This document shows positions 17,324 to 55,476 of a stretch of DNA of 64,000 nucleotides, piece by piece. Source of the stretch: Streptosporangium saharense (lineage in GTDB: Bacteria > Actinomycetota > Actinomycetes > Streptosporangiales > Streptosporangiaceae); contig NZ_JACHJP010000006.1 of assembly GCF_014203715.1 (NCBI RefSeq), forward strand, positions 62,001 through 126,000. Reading direction: 5' to 3'. The notes beneath the pieces were generated by a model, which was given only the letters and a program-made list of their open reading frames with translations, was not told where the DNA came from and searched no databases. The position numbers were made by a program, and so were the translations under genes. The stretch's first letter is position 1. Every line of letters starts with the position of its first letter.

Positions 17324-17537
17324 TGAAGAGCTTGGTCTTGGGGTTACCGGTGCTGTGCGTGAGGAGTGTCCGGCTTGGGCGCGTCGGTGAGCTGGACTGA
17401 GGAGTGACGGAGCGAAGCGGAGGAACGACGAGGGAAGTCACCGACTTCAGGCGCCCAAGTCCTGCGGTGCCGAAGGCACCGCAAAAGCAAGCACAGCCAA
17501 GCCCGCGCCGCCGAAGGCGGCGCAAAGGAAACACAGA
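17324..17537 (+). repeat. Dispersed structured repeat, copy A
   Basis: This 214-bp element is homologous to the reverse complement of 55306-55476. Its core (17374-17459) is bounded by CTTGGGCGC and GCGCCCAAG (9-bp perfect stem), with an inner stem TCGGTGA (17384-17390) / TCACCGA (17438-17444). The enclosed loop is nearly identical to copy B, with GGAGCGAAGCGGA in its centre. Downstream are two tandem hairpins with GAA loops (17464-17484 and 17505-17523), each followed by GCAAA(A)G-AA-CACAG. It fills most of the gap upstream of proS. It carries no open frame with coding character. Confidence 0.8.
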
Positions 17538-17583
17538 CACCTATAGCCTGAAGGTTGTTAATCCCTGCTAGCTAGGAGTAGCC

Positions 17584-31966: not shown

Positions 31967-32202
31967 CGTGAGCAAAACTGAATAGCCGAGACAGTGCCCC
32001 GCGTCCGCACAGCAAGCGCGCCCCACGGCGTCGGAGGGCCGGTCCTCGGTAGTGGCCCCCGGTCATCATGGCATCAGCCGTACGGAACCGGGCGCTTCAA
32101 TCGAAGACCGGCGCTGCACCTACGGGGAGCCGGCAGGAAAAGACGACCCAGGCGCGAGACGTGTGCCTGGGGGACGCGGGCGACCGATCAAAGGAGGTCC
32201 CC

Positions 32203-55260: not shown

Positions 55261-55310
55261 ACAGAGGCCGTCGATGTGTGTACCCCCGAGCACATATCGG
55301 CGGCCTCTGT
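55261..55310. repeat. 20-bp long-stem hairpin next to repeat copy B
   Basis: Bases 55261-55280 pair with 55291-55310 over all 20 positions, 18 Watson-Crick and two G-T pairs, around the loop TACCCCCGAG. It is followed by GTTTGCTTT. Its right end overlaps the left end of repeat copy B. Confidence 0.7.
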
Positions 55311-55476
55311 GTTTGCTTTGCGCCGCCTGGCGGCGGCGCGGGGGCTTGGGCGCCTGAGGCCAACGCTTTCCCTCGTCGCTCATCCGCTTCGCTCCTTCGC
55401 TCCTCAGTCCAAGCGTCGGCGCGCCCAAGCAAACCCCTCACGCATGGCGTCGGTAAGGCACAGGTCAAACCCTTCA
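55306..55476 (-). repeat. Dispersed structured repeat, copy B
   Basis: The reverse complement of this 171-bp stretch matches 17324-17537. The core (55345-55429) is bounded by CTTGGGCGC and GCGCCCAAG. On the minus strand the inner stem is CCGACGCTT/AAGCGTTGG, different in sequence from copy A but still paired. The loop between them differs from copy A at about 4 of 42 positions. Copy B has one distal GCGCCGCC/GGCGGCGC hairpin where copy A has two. It lies between the GntR gene and dapA. Confidence 0.8.

Follow-up and report, generated by a model that had tools for sequence, protein, structure and literature searches.

A dispersed, structured repeat of actinomycetes with covarying stems and a predicted tandem-GA ladder, read as a probable miniature mobile DNA element

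A structured sequence present twice in a 64,000-nucleotide stretch of the Streptosporangium saharense genome (the whole stretch analysed, here called the window) is best explained as a miniature mobile DNA repeat, non-autonomous and about 115–200 bp long, with a lifestyle like that of REPs and REPINs and with selection acting on a folded single strand, a reading to which we assign a probability of roughly 60%. On the strand that reads GGACTGAGG..GACGAGGG, the stems P1, P2 and P4 covary and the region between is conserved; copies are scattered, congeners have none at the two window sites, and some copies have duplicates beside them. The conserved region is predicted to pair as a tandem-GA ladder. 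A narrower form of the proposal, in which the fold would be a hairpin of single-stranded DNA with a tandem-GA ladder and GNA or GNNA tips, and the mover an actinomycete enzyme other than a Y1 transposase or a reverse transcriptase, is offered tentatively, with appreciably less than an even chance of being right.

The original prediction had placed two matching inverted copies in the window, and both were located there, copy 1 at 17324-17537 on the forward strand and copy 2 at 55306-55476 on the reverse strand; the core pattern gave these two matches in the window and none in 100 shuffles of it. Each copy is built in the same order: P1, P2 with five bulged bases between them on the 3′ side, a purine-rich conserved region, and finally the second hairpin, P4. 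In copy 1 (all positions on the forward strand), a 5′ module recognised from the sequence, TTGGGGTTACCGGTGCTGTGCGTGAGGAGTGTCCGG (17338..17373), precedes the core (17374..17459), which comprises the outer stem P1, CTTGGGCGC/GCGCCCAAG (17374-17382/17451-17459), the inner stem P2 (17383-17392/17437-17445) and the bulge (17446-17450); a GTGARGRGT-type module also lies upstream of 38 of the 41 own-genome copies whose upstream sequence reaches far enough. The stretch enclosed by P2 (17393..17436) is assigned to a GA ladder and an apical GC-GAA-GC mini-hairpin on the basis of the predicted RNA fold and of pair counts in 43 copies. Downstream lie P4, GCGGTGCC-GAA-GGCACCGC (17464..17482), with a GNA loop and a covarying stem; a second hairpin of the P4 type, read from the sequence as GCGCCGCC-GAA-GGCGGCGC (17505..17523; direct repeat D2); and the right-hand end, CACAG (17532..17536), a terminus that recurs in many family members and whose junction here adjoins the block upstream of proS. 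Copy 2 has its core at 55345..55429 on the reverse strand and belongs to a subfamily with P2 of the form GCCGACGC/GCGTTGGC; its P1, of the same sequence as in copy 1, occupies 55429-55421/55353-55345, its ladder and apical GC-GAA-GC mini-hairpin 55368..55411, and its P4, GCGCCGCC-GCCA-GGCGGCGC with a GNNA loop, 55320..55339. A coding element was rejected, as the original prediction had anticipated, copy 1 being overlain by mechanical antisense open reading frames only. The sole Rfam match in the window at gathering score is the Actino-pnp RNA (RF01688), at 32038-32112.

Selection for structure in P1, P2 and P4 is strongly indicated by pair statistics in three sets of copies. The largest contains 114 non-redundant copies (126 matches minus duplicates and edge cases, from 112 GTDB contigs and 2 viral contigs); the second, A2, of 85 copies, takes a single copy from each locus, chosen so that the P2 arms are distinct, and includes the two window copies; and the third, A1, consists of 43 own-genome copies chosen by their recognisable P1 arms, a choice that biases P1 pairing in this set upward. 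Between the window copies, P2 changes from TCGGTGA/TCACCGA to CCGACGC/GCGTTGG, and a recount agrees that four of the seven pairs differ on both sides while one becomes G.T. Across the 85 copies, pairing in P2 reaches 93.2% of cells (60.9% after shuffling), and all nine pairs change on both sides, giving a score of 0.757 compared with 0.190 in the shuffles and 0.095–0.140 in slid controls. Watson-Crick pairing in the 114 copies ranges from 77 to 98% per P2 position, with shuffled values of 31–47% at six positions and 66–98% at three conserved or biased ones; the innermost one shows no more pairing than its shuffles. The non-Watson-Crick cells of P2 in this set (49 G.T, 19 A.C and 66 other mismatches, of 1026) mark the GGACTGAGG strand as the likelier folded strand. 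P1 runs average 8.8 pairs, against 4.8 with partners swapped, and outward of it GA stands opposite GA in 29 of 114 copies, flanked mostly by GC/GC (16) or GT/AC (5). P4 covaries as well, one of its pairs being GC in 15, AU in 11, CG in 10 and unpaired in 7 of the 43 own-genome copies. The covariation under selection claimed from two copies thus finds strong support in all three sets, with values beyond both shuffles and slid controls; homologues exist, and they keep the stems.

The interior of P2 had been described as a shared loop of about 42 bases with about four differences. The four differences are confirmed; an open loop is not, since the region is predicted to pair, probably as a ladder in which tandem G.A mismatches stand between short Watson-Crick steps. 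RNA folding of both window copies (z-scores −4.2 and −3.5) gives steps of 1–2 bp alternating with GA/GA or GGA-type mismatches and ending in GC-GAA-GC, and the four differences resolve into two compensatory pairs, T17405-A17425 becoming C-G and C17408-G17422 becoming A-T from copy 1 to copy 2. In the 43 own-genome copies these two positions (17405-17425 and 17408-17422) change on both sides 10 and 13 times; ladder positions pair in 98.8% of cases, and both-sided cells number 23, compared with 8.5 in shuffles. Five of the eight ladder pairs are invariant in this set and therefore uninformative on covariation, and the number of pairs with a both-sided change, two, is not above shuffles. By inspection, the apical stem seemingly changes in step in four genomes (G003, G005, G278 and G388). 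With DNA parameters the ladder is absent from the minimum-energy fold, which either counts against the DNA reading or reflects a parameter set that gives tandem GA no reward. A good fold is predicted for the opposite strand of copy 1 as well (z −3.8 with RNA and −4.5 with DNA parameters).

The closing loops bear on whether the selected fold is DNA or RNA. In the own-genome alignment, all 43 P4 tips are GNA or GNNA (GCCA 20, GAA 12, GCA 6, GTCA 3, GTTA 1, GGA 1), as are all 43 apical tips (GAA 26, GCA 12, GCCA 5). Among the 114 wider copies, 76 carry a GC[GNA]GC apical tip with all four bases at N (GAA 42, GCA 24, GGA 7, GTA 3), 6 carry GC[GNNA]GC (GCCA 3, GGGA 2, GCAA 1), and 32 have other tips. 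The RNA-stable class of tetraloop is GNRA; the own-genome tetraloops GCCA, GTCA and GTTA do not belong to it, and three of the six four-base apical tips in the wider copies do (GGGA 2, GCAA 1). On the 3′ side of the cores, 57 distinct hairpins were recovered, 42 of them cGNAg, while 35 of the 114 copies gave none. In a stricter count of triloop hairpins, with stem thresholds of 6 and 7, 24 of the 30 lying just 3′ of a core had GNA on the strand of the element, compared with 18 of 175, either strand being counted, at other places in these loci. Only one of nine four-base loops in the stricter count was GNNA, so that the GNNA rule is unsupported there. The rule described for stable DNA mini-hairpins is a GNA or GNNA loop closed by at least two G-C pairs (PMC4686876), and tips of this DNA-stable type argue for a DNA over an RNA fold. 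G.T pairs, which a survey of GTAG REPs took as a hint of RNA function (PMC3733652), suit RNA as well as DNA, and so does tandem GA.

The element is abundant in its own genome and patchy beyond it. The exact core pattern matches 60 times in the 8.5-Mb genome (32 forward, 28 reverse), a covariance model 63 times (150 of 17741 candidates scored) and a BLAST search 54 times (40 of 128 candidates scored). Sixteen of 394 sampled members of the class carry the exact pattern, all of them within the 41 of the same family and none among the 353 others, and a reversed control pattern gave none among the matches listed in this sample; a looser BLAST query matches 23 of 60 relatives. Named GTDB genomes contribute at least 115 stretches with the element, and the 80 titled matches listed include Streptosporangium, Nonomuraea, Herbidospora, Acrocarpospora, Microtetraspora and Planotetraspora, and further Actinomadura, Actinoallomurus, Thermomonospora, many Kribbella, Virgisporangium, Actinophytocola and Gordonia amarae. 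Judging from these named loci, the family appears to be concentrated around the relatives of Streptosporangium and patchy elsewhere. The outer stem of Kribbella copies reads GGTCATGGGGC..GCCCCATGACC (L079, L164, L178 and other Kribbella loci), and in several of them, on inspection, a gene on the opposite strand seems to start at the left-arm ATGACC behind a GGGAGG motif. Two viral contigs carry the element; a window copy used as single query found no match in phages, and one copy from G001, likewise as single query, none in plasmids. One contig end in a public metagenome assembly (L105) carries CGCTCTTCCGATCT, presumably leftover sequencing adapter.

Copy number differs among genomes assembled in few contigs, four genomes of one or two contigs having 7, 1, 3 and 2 exact core matches and G007, in four contigs, 50. 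Ten copies with identical cores lie head-to-tail in G007 with a period of 115–116 bp (G007:C3:1209839-1210921). Partial copies accompany full ones: for 18 of 19 suffix fragments a full copy lies no more than 260 bp upstream, and for 15 of 26 prefix-only matches one lies within 150 bp downstream. About 10 of the 26 look like coding sequence that a loose pattern matched by chance, and, among the 15, L062 and L066 look like full copies split by the pattern and L055 runs into Ns. Nests of the form prefix-full-suffix also occur, with breakpoints in the apical hairpin.

Copies stand in either orientation and favour convergent gene ends. After de-duplication, 42 own-genome copies divide into 18 convergent, 15 co-directional, 5 divergent, 3 undetermined and 1 inside a called open reading frame, and the co-directional ones show no bias (7 sense vs 8 antisense). 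Clustering of 745 neighbouring open reading frames from 115 loci gave two largest clusters of 10 and 6 loci, with 0 and 1 members, respectively, within 600 bp of the element, and the neighbours have no gene family in common. One cluster is an exception, with all four of its members near the element (L158, L160, L167 and L189); these loci share other neighbour families too and are therefore taken as one conserved region in relatives. A cis-linked gene was rejected on this clustering, the four-locus cluster excepted. A regulatory leader, another of the readings proposed at the outset, does not agree with the mixed placement (convergent, sense and antisense), with the lack of a common neighbour gene family, or with the lack of a fixed position or orientation relative to any gene class.

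At the two window sites, copy 1 lies upstream of proS and copy 2 upstream of dapA, and the element core is absent from about 800 bp upstream of both genes in 15 of 15 congeners, by a test that reads the core pattern and that a decayed copy without the pattern would escape; the absence at both sites could in principle be loss. In 15 of 15 congeners a similar stretch comes directly before the ATAGCCTG block that precedes proS; here that stretch is missing and the right end of copy 1 abuts the block (17530-17560), so that the insertion may have taken the place of some of the proS promoter. For the element itself, neither a transposase nor an insertion event was seen; as for features of MITEs, its ends recur, with no clean pair of empty and filled sites that defines a target duplication.

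Of the three readings proposed with the original prediction, the hairpin-type dispersed repeat fits best. A structured RNA family (small RNA or 3′-UTR element), its genes spread by duplication and the fold acting in RNA, has in its favour the strong covariation, the many copies at gene 3′ ends, and the full ladder that both window copies form under RNA but not DNA parameters. Such a family is nevertheless unlikely in view of the absence of a common gene context, the equal sense and antisense placement, the tandem arrays of up to 10 copies, and the own-genome tips, GNA and non-GNRA GNNA. No Rfam family reaches gathering score over the element, and at relaxed E-value only two sub-threshold matches appeared around copy 1 (E 0.31 and 0.33); the undescribed structured RNA suggested at the outset is less likely than a mobile repeat, the loops being of the DNA-stable type. 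Passive multiplication of palindromes through replication slippage and gene conversion, needing no dedicated enzyme, would agree with the tandem and nested arrays, the breakpoints in the apical hairpin and the lack of a generally associated gene family, and yet is very improbable: local slippage does not suffice for dispersal to unlinked sites where relatives are without the element, or for a core conserved across distant actinomycete genera.

Movement by a transposase acting in trans is plausible, although its usual candidate, a RAYT- or IS200-type Y1 transposase, fits poorly. A REP/REPIN or IS200-type end mobilised by the genome's own Y1 (HUH) transposase would share the lifestyle of the element, extragenic, in high copy and with hairpins bearing compensatory changes as in REPINs (PMC3116915), and the own genome has two Y1 hits. 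The intact one, however, is an IS200/IS605 transposase (148 bits, cut-off 55) with a TnpB gene beside it, below the cut-off for REP-associated enzymes (33.9 vs 80), and its 3.35-kb locus contains none of five motif strings of the element; the other Y1 locus holds one short chance match. GTAG occurs in 0 of 43 own copies, and in 30 of 114 wider copies when sought anywhere within core plus flanks, with position unconstrained. Moreover, PF01797 gave no hit in six genomes, some of them fragmented drafts (G013, G015, G017, G024, G027 and G036), where the best element matches have E-values from 3.7e-16 to 8e-5. Dependence on Y1 or RAYT was accordingly rejected, and this explanation is held to be very unlikely. 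Reverse-transcriptase (retron) dependence was rejected on the absence of RVT_1 hits in G000, G007, G024 and G036, all with the element, the domain being present in the other four of the eight genomes searched. The core of integron attC sites is GTTRRRY, and an attC site was rejected, this motif occurring in 1 of 114 copies.

For the mobile repeat, the preferred explanation, the fold would form in single-stranded DNA on the lagging strand, during repair or by extrusion from supercoiled DNA, and a putative enzyme supplied in trans would recognise the ladder and cut or copy at the ends; since shape, ladder and tips alone would be read, the stems would drift freely. If this is true, a large fold-selected repeat family would be added to the actinomycetes, and the putative mobilising enzyme would become a defined target, which should bind the GA ladder as single-stranded DNA; loop chemistry, beyond covariation, would help to tell a DNA from an RNA fold. 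The window copies show such repeats landing beside the housekeeping genes proS and dapA. No description of this element was recognised, by title and start of abstract, among the matches listed from the open-licence PMC literature, and the family would be one unnamed in the main text of two REP/HuH surveys: the terms Actinobacteria, Streptomyces, Frankia and Mycobacterium are absent from that of the GTAG/CGTC survey (PMC3733652), and Actinobacteria and Streptomyces from that of the HuH survey.

In lifestyle, the nearest known systems are REPs and REPINs with their RAYT transposases (a further paper on these is PMC2817692). As described for them, the element forms high-copy extragenic palindromes (1 of 42 copies inside a called open reading frame), clusters, and lineage-specific variants (PMC3116915, PMC3733652, PMC6006769). 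REPs and REPINs form hairpins in single-stranded DNA and show compensatory changes (PMC3116915); the element likewise has compensatory changes, and a single-stranded DNA form would be a further likeness. In contrast to REPINs, in which the ends are conserved and the spacer less so (PMC3116915), the unit is larger and the tip-side ladder is conserved, with variable stems and ends. Unlike RAYT-associated REPs, its own-genome copies have no GTAG tag and Y1 was not found in six element genomes; lacking the tag and the RAYT association, the family is filed as REP-like in behaviour and not as a REP member. The CGTC REPs, reported from five other phyla, are likewise dispersed palindromes and reportedly lack a dedicated transposase, but have stems of 8–9 bp and loops of 4–5 bases, and the GA ladder is absent from their description; a single unpaired GA occurs in the stem of one GTAG family (PMC3733652). 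The STAXI motif is similarly a tandem structured repeat for which a role in single-stranded DNA was considered, and Weinberg and colleagues also used loop type, there with UUCG loops in favour of RNA, whereas the loop type of the element argues for DNA (PMC2864571). The tips follow the same loop rule as the d(GCGNAGC) and GNNA DNA mini-hairpins, of which d(GCGNAGC) is a synthetic fragment used in aptamers (PMC4686876); the element, a conserved genomic family, would then be a natural counterpart of stabilised DNA aptamers.
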